This document shows, piece by piece, positions 2 to 7,088 of a DNA stretch of 48,559 bases. Numbering within the stretch: the stretch's first letter is position 1; each line of letters opens with the position of its first letter. The stretch lies in the NCBI GenBank assembly GCA_903847955.1, contig CAINFA010000111.1, positions 1-48,559 on the forward strand, read 5' to 3'. The position numbers and the translations under genes were made by a program. The notes below the pieces were generated by a model. It made no database searches. It saw nothing but the letters and a program-made list of their open reading frames with translations, and was not told the origin of the DNA. This DNA comes from an uncultured Actinomycetes bacterium (GTDB taxonomy: Bacteria; Actinomycetota; Acidimicrobiia; Acidimicrobiales; RAAP-2).

Positions 2-1840
<1,839 letters not shown>

Positions 1841-1844
<4 letters not shown>

Positions 1845-2317
1845 GCACCCTCGGAGCGACGGACCTCGAGAGGGTCACGGCCTACCTCGGCCGTGAGCCC
1901 GAAGGTGCGTTCACCGTCGTGGTGCGTTCCGCCTCGGGGGACCCCGTGGTGATCGAGAACGCACCACTGCTCCGCGATGGGCGGCCGATGCCGACTCGCT
2001 ACTGGCTGGTGGACCCTGAGCTCAGAGCTGAGGTCAGTCGGCTGGAGTCCCAAGGAGGGGTCAACCGGGCCGAAGCCGAAGTTGACGAGGCTGCCATCGC
2101 AGCAGCGCATGAGCGCGCGGCGAGGGAGCGAGCGGCGTTGCTCGAGGGGCACGTTGGTCCCGCCCCGAGCGGCGGTGTCGCGGGCACTCGGACTGGGGTG
2201 AAGTGCCTGCACGCGCACCTCGCCACCTTCCTCGTTGACGGGACGGACCCGGTGGGGCGCTGGACGGCGAACCAGCTCGGGCTCGCGGTGCACCCAGGCG
2301 AGGACCACCATGGCTGA
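1841..2317 (+). CDS. DUF501 family protein
   Basis: Small soluble protein of about 158 aa with no known biochemical function. DUF501 features are the N-terminal LGREPEGAF segment, the RDGRPMPTRYWLVDPEL core, and the C-terminal GVKCLHAHLA and NQLGLAVHP blocks, where Cys and His residues cluster. The TTG start at 1841 overlaps the upstream TGA stop (TTGA), suggesting translational coupling to the FtsB-like gene; a GTG at 1805 in the same frame is an alternative. Its 3' end overlaps ppx by 8 nt. The eno-ftsB-DUF501-ppx order is widely conserved in actinobacteria, which supports reality of the gene but says little about its role. Confidence 0.85.
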
Positions 2318-3221
2318 GGTCCTCGCTGCGCTCGACTGCGGTACCAACTCCACTCGGCTCCTCATCGCCAAGAGCGACGGCACCGTGCTGCACCGAGCCA
2401 TGACCATCACCCGACTCGGGCAAGGCGTCGACGCGACGGGAGCTCTCGACCCCGAGGCCATCGGTCGTGTCCTCGCAGCACTCGAGGAGTTCCGCACCGC
2501 CATGGACCACCACGGCGTAGTCCGAGGACGGCTGGCGGCGACCTCGGCGGTGCGCGACGCGTCCAACGGCAACGTGTTCCTCGAACGGGCGACCGAGGTC
2601 AGTGGGGTCCGAGCCGAGGTCCTCGCAGGCTCCGAAGAAGCGGCGTTGAGCTACCTCGGTGCGACGGCTTCCCTCGGTCCTGCCACCGGACCGCGCCTCG
2701 TGGTCGACGTGGGCGGGGGCTCTGCCGAGCTCGTGCTCGACACCTTGGAAGGCCTCGAGTCCATCTCGCTGCAGTTGGGCTGCGTGCGGATCACCGAGCG
2801 ATGCTTCACCGGACCTCCGCCGACGAGCGCTGAGCTCGACCATGCCCGTGCGGTGATCGGTGCTGAGCTCGACCGAGCCCGCGCCGCCATGCCGCACCTC
2901 GCCACCAGCCGGCCTGTGGTGGTCGGCTTGGCCGGCACGGTCGCCACCTTGGTCCAGCTCGACCGAGGCATCGAGCACTACGAGCGCACAGCTGTGCACC
3001 ACCAGGTGGTGACAGCCGAAGCACTGCAGCGCTGGATCGACCAGCTCAGCCACGAGGACCTCGAGACGAGGATGGGTCACGCAGGGATGGTGCCTGGTCG
3101 AGCCGATGTGCTCCTCGGTGGGCTCCTCGTCCTCGAGGCGGTCCTCGCAACCTGTGCGGCCGGTTCGTTGCTCAGCTCTGAGGATGACATCTTGGATGGG
3201 CTCATTGCCTCGCTGCGATGA
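2310..3221 (+). CDS. Exopolyphosphatase / pppGpp phosphatase (Ppx/GppA family)
   Basis: Predicted phosphatase of the actin-like ATPase fold acting on polyphosphate and/or pppGpp, 303 aa. This is the short Ppx class lacking the HD-like C-terminal domain of the ~500 aa enterobacterial enzymes. Visible motifs are the phosphate-1 loop ALDCGTNSTRLLI (residues 6-18), the phosphate-2 loop VVDVGGGSAELVL near 131, and GLAGTVATL near 210. The ATG at 2310 lies in an ATGGCTGA overlap with the DUF501 stop and has AGGCGAGG upstream. Which of the two substrates is used cannot be read from the sequence. Confidence 0.92.
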   Translation: MAEVLAALDCGTNSTRLLIAKSDGTVLHRAMTITRLGQGVDATGALDPEAIGRVLAALEEFRTAMDHHGVVRGRLAATSAVRDASNGNVFLERATEVSGVRAEVLAGSEEAALSYLGATASLGPATGPRLVVDVGGGSAELVLDTLEGLESISLQLGCVRITERCFTGPPPTSAELDHARAVIGAELDRARAAMPHLATSRPVVVGLAGTVATLVQLDRGIEHYERTAVHHQVVTAEALQRWIDQLSHEDLETRMGHAGMVPGRADVLLGGLLVLEAVLATCAAGSLLSSEDDILDGLIASLR

Positions 3222-3362
3222 GCCCAAGGTCGTTGCGGGCCAGAGGTTGGGGTGCGACCATCAGTGCGTGGCTCCCGTCAGCACCCCTCATCGATACCCG
3301 GGCGGTGGACGGTGCGTGAGCGTTGGTGGTTTCGCCGTCGCAGCGAGCCAGAGGCGGCCCCA

Positions 3363-3983
3363 ATGGTCGTGACCCGTCGCCAAGACCTCCACCACCTCTC
3401 GCTGCGGACGCAGCGCCTCGAGCTGCGCACCATGACTGATGCCGACTTCCCAGCCTGGAGCGAGGTCCGGGTTCGGAGCCGGGACTGGCTCACCAAGTGG
3501 GAGCCAAGGCTGCGCGGGGCTCCAGGGATGGCAGAGGACCGCTCCAGCTTCGCCGCACGGTGCTCCGCTCGCGAGCGGGAGCGCCAGCTCGGCGTGGGCT
3601 ACGGCTTTGGGATCTTCGATGCCGAGGGCTTCAGTGGAGAGATCACCTTGTCCTCGATTCAACGAGGTCCCTTCCAGAATGCCGTCATTGGGTACTGGAT
3701 CGACGTGGCCAAGGCTGGGCGAGGCTACATGCCCGAAGCGTGCGTGGCCGTGCTCGACTTCGCCTTCTCGTCGCTGTCCTTGCACCGGGTTGAGATCGCG
3801 ATCATCCCGCGCAACACCGCCTCACGCCGGGTGGTCGAGAAGCTCGAGATCCGCCTCGAGGGCATCGCCGAGCGCATGCTCGAGATCGACGGCGTGTGGG
3901 AGGACCACGCTCGCTACGCCATCACCTCTGAGGAGTGGGACGTCCGCGGGCCAGAGCTGACGGGGCGCTACCTGACCTCGTGA
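3363..3983 (+). CDS. GNAT N-acetyltransferase (RimJ-like)
   Basis: Predicted acetyl-CoA-dependent N-acetyltransferase of about 206 aa. The RimJ/RimL pattern is visible: LSLRTQRLELRTMTDADF at the N-terminus, the central IGYWIDVAKAGRGYMPEA segment carrying the acetyl-CoA loop, LHRVEIAIIPRNTASRRVVEKL, and the LEGIAERML tail. Such enzymes acetylate protein N-termini, amino sugars or antibiotics; the substrate is unknown. The ATG at 3363 has AGAGG eight bases upstream and gives the usual family length; GTG codons at 3252 and 3312 would add basic N-terminal residues and cannot be excluded. It lies 140 nt after ppx and its last 16 nt overlap the convergent glycosyltransferase gene. Confidence 0.85.
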   Translation: MVVTRRQDLHHLSLRTQRLELRTMTDADFPAWSEVRVRSRDWLTKWEPRLRGAPGMAEDRSSFAARCSARERERQLGVGYGFGIFDAEGFSGEITLSSIQRGPFQNAVIGYWIDVAKAGRGYMPEACVAVLDFAFSSLSLHRVEIAIIPRNTASRRVVEKLEIRLEGIAERMLEIDGVWEDHARYAITSEEWDVRGPELTGRYLTS

Positions 3984-5038: not shown

Positions 5039-6277
5039 TCAGGGGCGGGCAGCGCCGATCAAGCCGTAGGTGAAGATGGACGCGAACTCCACCGTCGCGC
5101 CGGTGTGGGGCGCCTGGACGATGGTCTGCGTACCGTACGGGCCTGCGCCGGCGTACATCACGACGTGGTCAACCTGGTGGTCGTGGTCGAGGTTGAAGTA
5201 GAAGAGCAAGTCGCCAGGCTGGAGTGCGGTGAGGCTCACGTGGGGCAGCGCTTCCCACTGAGCAGCAGCGACCCGAGGGATGCTGACGCCGGCTTGGGCC
5301 CACGACCACTGGGTAAGCCCAGAGCAGTCGAAGCCCTTCGAAGGCGTCTCGCCTCCCCAGACGTAGGGGACACCGAGCTGGCTCTCGGCAGCGTTGAGCG
5401 CTGCGAGGCCGGCCGAGGATCCGCTGGCCGTGCCGTTCACCTTGGTGACCCCGCCGGCCGAACCCGCCGCTTGGTTAGCTGCCGTATTCGCCGCATTCGA
5501 CGCGCTCGAATTGCCAACCGAACTGGCCACCCCGGCAGCCGCTGCTGCTGCCGCGGCTGCTGCAGCGGCGGCAGCACGGCTCTTGGCTGCGGCCGCTGCG
5601 GCGGCTTGCTGCTGGGCGATGCGGACCGCCTCAGCTGCCACTGCCTGTGCCAGAGATCCCTTCACCGAGTCGAGCTCTTTGGTCAGGGCGCGCTGGTTGT
5701 CCTCGTTCTCGGTGACCAGTGATGCCAGCTCTGCGGACGTCGCCTTCTCGGTCGATGCCTCGAGCGCCAACGTTGCACTGGTCTTGGAGAGTTGGGCGTG
5801 CTCGGTGGCCAAGGTGTTCGCCAACTCGTTCAGGTTGCCAGCAGCACTCTGGGCGTAGACCGCCTCAGCCTCGGTTGAGCTCGAGGGCCCTTGGAACAGC
5901 GACGCTCCAGCGACGCTGCCGTCGACGTAGGTGGCGATGGCATCGGTTTGGAGGAGGTCCGTGGTGGCTGCTGCAGAGGCGGTCACCTTGGCCAGCCGCT
6001 GCGCGTTCGCGGCGTAGGCCACCTTGGTCTGGTGCGCCGCGCTCAAGGCTGCGTCGTAGCGCTGCGACAGCGATTCTTGGGCCTGCTCGTCGGTGGCGAT
6101 CTGCTGCTCGACGGCCAACACTTGGTGTTCGAGACCCGAGATGGCGGTTGGAGACGGGGCGCGACGCTCCCCTTCGGCCACGAGGGGCACCGAGCAAGCG
6201 ACGAGCACGACGGCGACGCCAACGGCTCGGGGGAGCCATCGCTGCACCGCTGCGCCCCGACATGGCACAGACGTCAC
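5039..6277 (-). CDS. Secreted NlpC/P60 peptidoglycan endopeptidase
   Basis: Cell-wall hydrolase of 412 aa cleaving stem peptides outside the cell. A basic N-terminus and hydrophobic stretch end in LVACS at residue 28, which also fits a lipobox. Residues ~45-225 form a coiled coil resembling RipA/PcsB-type hydrolases. An Ala-rich linker (about 224-250) with a 14-Ala run follows. The NlpC/P60 domain spans ~290-412 with the triad C318 (FDCSGL), H371 (VDHVVMY) and H391 (APHTGAT). The GTG start is six bases after a TAGCGT hexamer, consistent with a leaderless mRNA. The long coiled coil suggests regulation by a divisome partner, by analogy with the family. Confidence 0.93.
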   Translation of the reverse strand: MTSVPCRGAAVQRWLPRAVGVAVVLVACSVPLVAEGERRAPSPTAISGLEHQVLAVEQQIATDEQAQESLSQRYDAALSAAHQTKVAYAANAQRLAKVTASAAATTDLLQTDAIATYVDGSVAGASLFQGPSSSTEAEAVYAQSAAGNLNELANTLATEHAQLSKTSATLALEASTEKATSAELASLVTENEDNQRALTKELDSVKGSLAQAVAAEAVRIAQQQAAAAAAAKSRAAAAAAAAAAAAAAGVASSVGNSSASNAANTAANQAAGSAGGVTKVNGTASGSSAGLAALNAAESQLGVPYVWGGETPSKGFDCSGLTQWSWAQAGVSIPRVAAAQWEALPHVSLTALQPGDLLFYFNLDHDHQVDHVVMYAGAGPYGTQTIVQAPHTGATVEFASIFTYGLIGAARP

Positions 6278-6283
6278 GACTCC

Positions 6284-6289
6284 ACGCTA
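6284..6289 (-). promoter_or_regulatory. Leaderless -10 hexamer of the NlpC/P60 gene
   Basis: TAGCGT on the minus strand, separated by exactly 6 nt (GGAGTC) from the GTG at 6277. No -35 consensus is visible. Confidence 0.6.
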
Positions 6290-6368
6290 CCGGGCGAGGG
6301 ACGCGATGGGAAGGCCGCCAGCGGCCAGAGGTGCTGGGGTCTGCGAAGATCTCCCAGTGGTCGTCTCC

Positions 6369-6441
6369 GGGGACGTAGCCCAACGGCAGAGGCAAGGCGC
6401 TTAAACCGCCCCGAGTGAGGGTTCGAATCCCTCCGTCCCCA
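6369..6441 (+). tRNA. tRNA with UAA anticodon (Leu by anticodon, class I architecture)
   Basis: A 73-nt cloverleaf is evident. Acceptor stem GGGGACG (6369-6375) pairs with CGTCCCC (6434-6440), with A73 at 6441. The D arm begins GCCC and closes with GGC. The anticodon arm has the 7-nt loop CTTAAAC (6400-6406), giving anticodon UAA. The T arm GAGGG-TTCGAAT-CCCTC is perfect. CCA is not encoded. UAA should read the UUA leucine codon, yet bacterial tRNA-Leu normally has a long variable arm, and here the variable region is only five bases (CGAGT). The anticodon stem also has an A-C mismatch at its base. It is therefore an atypical tRNA-Leu, a tRNA charged with another amino acid, or a decaying copy. 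A terminator hairpin follows directly. Confidence 0.85.
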
Positions 6442-6444
6442 CTT

Positions 6445-6466
6445 CGTTGTCGAAATGACAACGTTT
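6445..6466 (+). terminator. Rho-independent terminator of the tRNA gene
   Basis: Perfect 7-bp stem CGTTGTC/GACAACG (6445-6451 with 6457-6463) with a five-base loop GAAAT, followed by TTT. It begins three bases after the mature tRNA 3' end, so it most likely ends the tRNA transcript. Confidence 0.75.
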
Positions 6467-6476
6467 CCCCAGGTCA
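6462..6476 (+). repeat. 15-bp direct repeat, left copy (possible att or island boundary)
   Basis: CGTTTCCCCAGGTCA here recurs exactly at 8019-8033, about 1.56 kb away. The copy starts inside the right arm of the tRNA terminator, a usual integration neighbourhood. No integrase gene lies between the copies, so an excision or integration role is only inferred. Confidence 0.6.
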
Positions 6477-6681
6477 AAATTCATTTTCTAGGGGTGGCCT
6501 TTGACCTAATCGTTGGCCAACCCGTCGGTCCGCGATGACAACGTGTGTGATCAGCACCAAGCATCCCCGAACGGCACCTTGGCCCGCACTGCAGCGCCGT
6601 TCCCGCGCTGACCTCGGCAGATCTCCTCGCAAGTTGCGGGTGCATCCTCCAAATGTCGCAACCCCCATCCACGATGTCGAT

Positions 6682-6879
6682 GTGAAAGTCAAGGACCTGA
6701 TCAGAGAGCTCGAAGCCGACGGCTGGAGTCAAGTTCGCCAAGTTGGCAGCCATCGTCAGTTTCGCCACGATTCCAAGCCAGGGACCGTCACGGTGTCGGG
6801 TGGACTGGGAGAAGATATGGCGAAGGGAACCGTTGGTAGCGTGGTTCGACAAGCGGGGCTCGCCCGGAGGCAACGATGA
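6682..6879 (+). CDS. hicA: HicA family toxin (mRNA interferase)
   Basis: Small toxin of a type II toxin-antitoxin pair, about 65 aa, with the dsRBD-like HicA fold. Visible features are KVKDLIRELEADGW at the N-terminus, the catalytic-histidine segment GSHRQFRH, GTVTVSG, and a C-terminal helix. HicA proteins degrade mRNA; HicB neutralises them. I chose the GTG at 6682 because it gives the family length and the canonical N-terminus; the longer in-frame reading back to 6535 adds unrelated residues. No good ribosome site is seen. The stop overlaps the hicB start (ATGA), as usual for the pair. The gene lies in the repeat-flanked stretch after the tRNA, consistent with horizontal arrival. Confidence 0.9.
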   Translation: MKVKDLIRELEADGWSQVRQVGSHRQFRHDSKPGTVTVSGGLGEDMAKGTVGSVVRQAGLARRQR

Positions 6880-7088
6880 CTGAGTACGCGATCGTGATCG
6901 AAGATGCTGGCAGCAACTTCTCTGCCTACGTCCCAGACTTGCCTGGCTGTGTCGCTTCTGGTTCGACCGTCGATGAGGTCACCGAGAGAATCCGAGAGGC
7001 AATGGCCCTCCACCTGGAATCGTTGCGTGAGCACGGCGAAGCTGTTCCGCCGTCGACCTCCCGGGTGAGTTCGGTCAAAGTCGCCTAG
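6876..7088 (+). CDS. hicB: HicB family antitoxin
   Basis: Antitoxin partner of HicA, 70 aa. It shows the degraded RNase H-like HicB core: YAIVIEDAGSNFSAYVPDLPGC followed by a short gap, VASGSTVDEVTERIREAMALHLESL and GEAVPPS. No separate helix-turn-helix or ribbon-helix-helix domain is evident after the core, so DNA autoregulation would need residues not recognised here or the HicAB complex. It is translationally coupled to hicA by a 4-nt ATGA overlap. Confidence 0.92.
   Translation: MTEYAIVIEDAGSNFSAYVPDLPGCVASGSTVDEVTERIREAMALHLESLREHGEAVPPSTSRVSSVKVA

Follow-up and report, generated by a model that had tools for sequence, protein, structure and literature searches.

Textbooks and reviews place cytosolic tRNA-Leu in class II, and the locus analysed here raises the question of what is made by a tRNA gene that combines the leucine anticodon UAA with a class I cloverleaf. 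The gene is the sole tRNA gene within the window (the whole stretch of 48,559 nt that was analysed), which is contig C111 of a draft genome of 2.28 Mb in 245 contigs, 89.6% complete with 3.5% contamination. The original prediction described a class I tRNA of 73 nt with the anticodon UAA, a five-base variable region, no encoded CCA and a mismatch at the base of the anticodon stem, and offered three readings of it: a leucine tRNA of another architecture, a tRNA charged with a different amino acid, or a degenerate copy. The description was confirmed in full by ARAGORN, by Rfam and by inspection of the sequence, which contains the following features.

6369-6441, forward strand: predicted class I tRNA-Leu(UAA) gene, 73 nt (ARAGORN; Rfam RF00005, 58.1 bits), kept in relatives
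6378-6393, forward strand: Leu-type D-arm, GCCCAACGGCAGAGGC, with a 3-bp stem, a C13.A22 mismatch, A14, A15, G18G19 and A20a
6395-6411, forward strand: anticodon arm, AGGCG-CTTAAAC-CGCCC, with an A27.C43 mismatch at the end next to the D-arm
6402-6404, forward strand: anticodon TAA (UAA), ARAGORN position 34, predicted to read UUA, and UUG by wobble
6412-6416, forward strand: variable region CGAGT, 5 nt, of which the last base is U48, pairing with A15
6441, forward strand: discriminator A73, followed by the bases C-T, hence no encoded CCA

A tRNA-Leu(taa) was called by ARAGORN at 6369-6442, and the match at 6369-6441 extends across the full Rfam tRNA model (E 4.5e-10; the gathering cut-off is 29 bits), indicating a complete cloverleaf. 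The acceptor stem GGGGACG/CGTCCCC has seven pairs, the anticodon stem AGGCG/CGCCC flanks CTTAAAC with four pairs plus the A27.C43 mismatch, and the T-arm reads GAGGG TTCGAAT CCCTC. The variable region, at 5 nt, is shorter than the class II arm, defined as at least 10 nt with a stem of its own. The D-arm consists of a three-pair GCC/GGC stem, the C13.A22 mismatch and the loop GGCAG, and its layout is that of class II tRNA-Leu, unlike that of ordinary class I tRNAs. The absence of CCA is ordinary, since about 16 of the 40 tRNA genes read in the source draft genome also lack it. A scan of 6200-6600, of a kind that is weak for Actinomycetota, revealed no sigma-70-like promoter and no terminator. 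Directly downstream of the tRNA gene are genes of a HicA toxin and a HicB-like antitoxin (6679-6879 and 6876-7088, forward strand; Pfam PF07927, PF15919).

The source draft genome was examined for the other leucine tRNAs. Its Leu CAA, CAG, UAG and GAG genes are all class II; no class II Leu(UAA) was found there, and the gene at 6369-6441 is the sole UAA tRNA. Because the draft is incomplete and slightly contaminated, this absence is weak evidence by itself, and therefore every tRNA with a long variable region was read in three better genomes: G009 (97% complete, 7 contigs), G025 (4 contigs) and Cutibacterium modestum. These tRNAs are Leu CAA, CAG, UAG and GAG, four Ser and Tyr, with no Leu(UAA) among them; one more match, of 79 nt in C. 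modestum, was called Gln. A class II copy hidden in assembly gaps was rejected on these grounds, and the search for a normal class II tRNA-Leu(UAA) that the original prediction had proposed was negative in the draft and in all three better assemblies. By pattern search, class II Leu(UAA) is present in none of the 37 genomes of the family (source included), with a pattern that detects it in 14 other families of the order.

Within the order, tRNA-Leu(UAA) alternates in form from family to family: most families have class II, f29 has both, and class I is found in f1, f9, f22, f31, f33, f39, f43, f48, f60, f61 and others. The class I form is patchy inside families f29, f99 and f101; in f29 (L500, L502, L503, L504) there are genomes with class I and genomes with class II, of which the loci could not be matched. 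Copies outside the family occur in the cultured genera Cutibacterium, Cellulomonas, Aeromicrobium, Microlunatus, Demequina, Actinotalea and Propionimicrobium. Twenty genomes with class I outside the family were examined for a second UAA tRNA and showed none, the extra matches in two of them not being tRNA-like. A sample of 297 genomes of the phylum contains 70 with a genuine class I gene (five more matches were dropped from the count as not tRNA-like) and 198 that match the class II pattern. None of the 70 has a genuine class II Leu(UAA), the two pattern matches among them being something other than tRNA-Leu; if both are nevertheless counted as real, the exclusion of one form by the other has a Fisher p of 6e-40, a value that the relatedness of the genomes makes optimistic. 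Class I Leu(UAA) is widespread and not unique to the source organism. Two variants were noted on the way. One genome of family f2 (G037, L562, 179-253) encodes a class I tRNA-Leu(CAA), GGGGGCGTATCCCAACCGGCAGAGGAAC..., which suggests a shift to class I in a second isoacceptor there. Another genome (G060, L588, 1467-1542) has a class I UAA tRNA with a quite different D-arm, GCTTAAGAGGACTAAAGC, which may be another type or a contaminant.

The genes upstream of the tRNA gene include the markers of a conserved locus.

11-1306, forward strand: enolase (eno), Pfam PF03952/PF00113, first marker of the conserved locus, also close to the class I gene in Cutibacterium, Demequina, Acidipropionibacterium and others
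1805-2317, forward strand: DUF501 protein, Pfam PF04417, found near class I and class II Leu(UAA) genes
2235-3221, forward strand: Ppx/GppA phosphatase (ppx), Pfam PF02541, locus marker
3252-3983, forward strand: GNAT acetyltransferase, Pfam PF13302, marker also seen at class II loci

A glycosyltransferase gene and an NlpC/P60 gene also precede the tRNA gene. The genes eno, DUF501 and/or ppx are near the class I gene in Cutibacterium, Demequina, Acidipropionibacterium, Cellulomonas, Egibacteraceae and many Acidimicrobiales. For the class II gene, the neighbours no more than a few kb away are DUF501, ppx and/or GNAT in families f13, f16, f17, f20 and f53, DUF501 in f32, and GNAT alone in f10, f12, f15 and f21. 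Thus a single locus, with DUF501, ppx and GNAT as common neighbours, seems to be occupied by one form or the other in sister families.

The meaning of UUA codons was examined by aligning open reading frames from 800 kb of G025, a relative with class I as its only UAA tRNA, against those of G047, a genome with class II Leu(UAA); TTA was masked, which avoids the bias of reading it as Leu. The UUA codons of G025 are opposite Leu in 153 of 236 cases (65%), compared with 62% for UUG, 60% for CUG and 57% for CUC, and no non-Leu amino acid exceeds 9% at these positions. In the source genome, UUA is opposite Leu at 7 of 7 sites against G047 and 4 of 7 against G025; this test rests on 14 aligned sites across the two comparisons, because UUA is rare there. 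By the measure of these alignments, UUA is shown to mean leucine in a genome having only a class I UAA tRNA. The same counts bear on a regulatory role like that of bldA, in which the level of the tRNA would control genes containing a rare codon. UUA is indeed rare in the source genome (2 in 4010 codons of 13 genes in the window; 7 in 15991 aligned codons), but such rarity is expected from high G+C, and UUA is common in G025 (236 of 45996 aligned codons), so that the class I tRNA is a general decoder there; a bldA-like role is improbable.

The original prediction would have lost its footing if the gene were not conserved in relatives. It is present in 34 of the 36 other genomes of the family, with 88-96% identity and mostly in single copy; in the remaining two (G011 and G016, 93-95% complete), neither class I nor class II Leu(UAA) was found. 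Covariation was assessed in 128 distinct cellular copies of class I Leu(UAA). Pairing of the acceptor, anticodon and T stems holds in 125-128 of these, and double compensatory changes at 13 pairs keep the cloverleaf. The invariance of the D-arm in this set is partly due to the inclusion of the D-arm in the search pattern; in three copies found without that pattern (L565, L594 and L597), the pairs of the D-stem change together. The compensated D-stem variants, from genomes outside the family, are GTC/GAC in L594, CTC/GAG in L597 and TCC/GGA in L565. A73 is present in 127 of the 128 cellular copies, and the variable region is 5 nt long in 125 and 6 nt long in 3. The pair 27-43 forms in 125 of them (GC 55, GT 45, AT 20, CG 5) and is mismatched in the other three (AC 2, CT 1); AC is found only in the copy at 6369-6441 and in L303, and the A27.C43 mismatch, which may weaken this tRNA, is nearly private to its lineage. 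A four-base-pair anticodon stem serving as a superwobble device (PMC13092985) was considered and rejected, the mismatch not being a feature of the family. A degenerate or unexpressed copy, with the real Leu(UAA) in the unassembled part of the genome, would fit the mismatch and the incompleteness of the draft. It is nonetheless very unlikely: family-wide conservation, mostly in single copy, and compensatory changes led to rejection of a pseudogene, the better assemblies also have no class II UAA gene, and the two forms are mutually exclusive in the phylum.

In Escherichia coli, leucine identity depends on A73, A15-U48, G18G19 and A20a, and variants without the long arm are still active (PMC9976931). 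All determinants for leucyl-tRNA synthetase (LeuRS), namely A73, A14, A15-U48, G18G19 and A20a, are present in the sequence of the tRNA at 6369-6441. A14, A15, U48 and A73 are found together in 293 of the 303 Leu tRNAs of class I and 96 of the 98 of class II; the count among class I tRNAs for other amino acids is 139 of 887. The Leu-type D-arm signature occurs in 251 of 1408 distinct tRNAs, every one of them with a Leu anticodon. LeuRS of the bacterial family (TIGR00396) was found in 41 of 41 genomes, scored for presence only. The LeuRS of the source genome appears to be split between contigs C181 and C226, and genome G003 has two LeuRS loci above the cut-off. Natural recoding, in which the tRNA would be charged with another amino acid and UUA would not mean leucine, could draw on the class I shape typical of non-Leu tRNAs and on G2-C71 in the acceptor stem in place of the C2-G71 of class II Leu(UAA) in the order, but it was rejected as highly improbable, since UUA is opposite Leu as often as other Leu codons are in the masked test, the LeuRS determinants are retained, and the D-arm signature occurs almost exclusively with Leu anticodons.

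Conservation, a structure under selection, the lack of a class II counterpart, the meaning of UUA, the LeuRS determinants and the shared locus together argue that the gene at 6369-6441 is a functional class I tRNA-Leu(UAA) and probably the only dedicated UUA decoder of the cell, a reading to which a probability of roughly 0.92 may be given. Of the three readings offered at the outset, the leucine tRNA of another architecture is the one that stands, although as a widespread form; the other two did not survive the codon test and the pattern of compensatory change, respectively. Class I Leu(UAA) is most likely a substrate of the same ordinary bacterial-type LeuRS as the four class II tRNA-Leu isoacceptors; the enzyme would recognise A73, A14, G18G19, A20a and the A15-U48 Levitt pair, and not the long arm. 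CCA would be added post-transcriptionally, and the tRNA, presumably expressed, would read UUA as leucine; one LeuRS would then serve both tRNA classes.

The origin of class I Leu(UAA) is less clear than its function. Slightly short of an even chance is an origin in place, in which the long arm of a class II Leu(UAA) gene disappeared and the D-arm was adjusted to a class I core. The presence of both classes at the DUF501-ppx-GNAT locus in sister families and the class II Leu layout retained by the D-arm are consistent with this, but the acceptor and anticodon stems differ too, and no intermediate was seen. A second candidate source is viral. Class I tRNA-Leu is common on viral contigs (IMG/VR loci L363-L499), where each of the six Leu anticodons occurs and the D-arm is the same; the D-arm signature in viral loci, including those from a scan for the D-arm only, belongs to 125 Leu, 2 Gly(gcc) and 4 unassigned tRNAs. 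Named phages with class I tRNA-Leu include Mycobacterium phage Tourach, with tRNA-Leu(tag), and Cyanophage P-RSM6. The core of cellular class I Leu(UAA) has a mean best identity of 0.78-0.80 to viral class I and 0.75 to cellular class II UAA, in sequences that are short, and by mean core identity the order is reversed (0.68 to class II UAA, 0.66 to viral class I). Three tRNA arrays on contigs of metagenome-assembled genomes (L295, 2223-2672; L313, 5955-6256; L317, 6099-6405), each carry three or four Leu anticodons, and all Leu tRNAs detected in them are of class I and have the same D-arm; the arrays are possibly phage or mobile-element sequence. A plasmid origin was rejected, there being no match in 72,556 plasmid records.

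Replacement, in which the class II gene gave way at its locus to a phage-type class I tRNA-Leu, perhaps on several occasions, is a tentative reading with distinctly less than even odds. In its favour are the viral set with its six anticodons and the same D-arm, the higher best-match identity to viral class I and the patchiness of class I within f29, f99 and f101. However, the recurrence of the locus near eno-ppx in distant orders points to long vertical descent, the margin in identity is small and is reversed in the mean, and phages could have acquired class I tRNA-Leu from their hosts. The stronger claim, that a phage-type lineage repeatedly displaced chromosomal class II Leu(UAA) at its own locus across Actinomycetota, is unlikely; if it were true, an essential host decoder would be of viral architecture, with one LeuRS for two tRNA classes.

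If class I Leu(UAA) is functional, a large part of Actinomycetota, cultured genera included, would decode UUA with no dedicated tRNA other than a class I tRNA-Leu. Such a case would put the claimed indifference of bacterial LeuRS to the long arm to a natural test, and mitochondrial tRNA-Leu would have a counterpart in bacteria. Where annotation takes the isotype from the long arm, class I Leu genes could be misjudged; the name tRNA-Leu may already be attached to such genes in existing genome annotations, as it is in phage records. The matching phage set raises the question of phage-host tRNA exchange. In a literature search with subscription journals mostly outside its reach, no paper was found that describes a class I tRNA-Leu(UAA) encoded on a bacterial chromosome, or one that alone reads UUA, and short-loop bacterial tRNA-Leu received only passing mentions in the papers searched.

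Among known systems, the class II bacterial tRNA-Leu(UAA) shares with the tRNA at 6369-6441 its anticodon, A73, A14, A15-U48, G18G19, A20a, the 3-bp D-stem with a 13.22 mismatch and, in sister families, the locus, whereas the 5-nt variable region, the acceptor and anticodon stems and the GCC/GGC D-stem are different. In Streptomyces, a high-G+C actinobacterium, the rare codon UUA is read by bldA, a class II tRNA-Leu(UAA); the likeness lies in that task, and the difference in the class I form of the tRNA at 6369-6441. The phage class I tRNA-Leu genes (Tourach, P-RSM6) have the same D-arm and a short variable region, but phages carry six Leu anticodons, often in arrays, whereas the gene at 6369-6441 is a single chromosomal UAA gene and the only UUA reader. 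A bacterial tRNA-Leu(TAG) with a short variable loop is known from a mycobacterial tRNA cluster (PMC6582537); that one is an extra, cluster-borne gene beside a TAG gene with a normal loop, whereas the tRNA at 6369-6441 is the sole isoacceptor. For Mycobacterium tuberculosis, Leu-2, 3 and 5 are named as long-loop, implying that not all tRNA-Leu are (PMC11541572). Animal mitochondrial tRNA-Leu(UUR) is class I, with its identity determined by A73 and A14 (PMC9976931), and is likewise a UUR-reading Leu tRNA without a long arm; in contrast, the gene at 6369-6441 is on a bacterial chromosome, has regular GC-rich stems and would be served by a bacterial-type LeuRS, and the two are presumed to be of unrelated origin.
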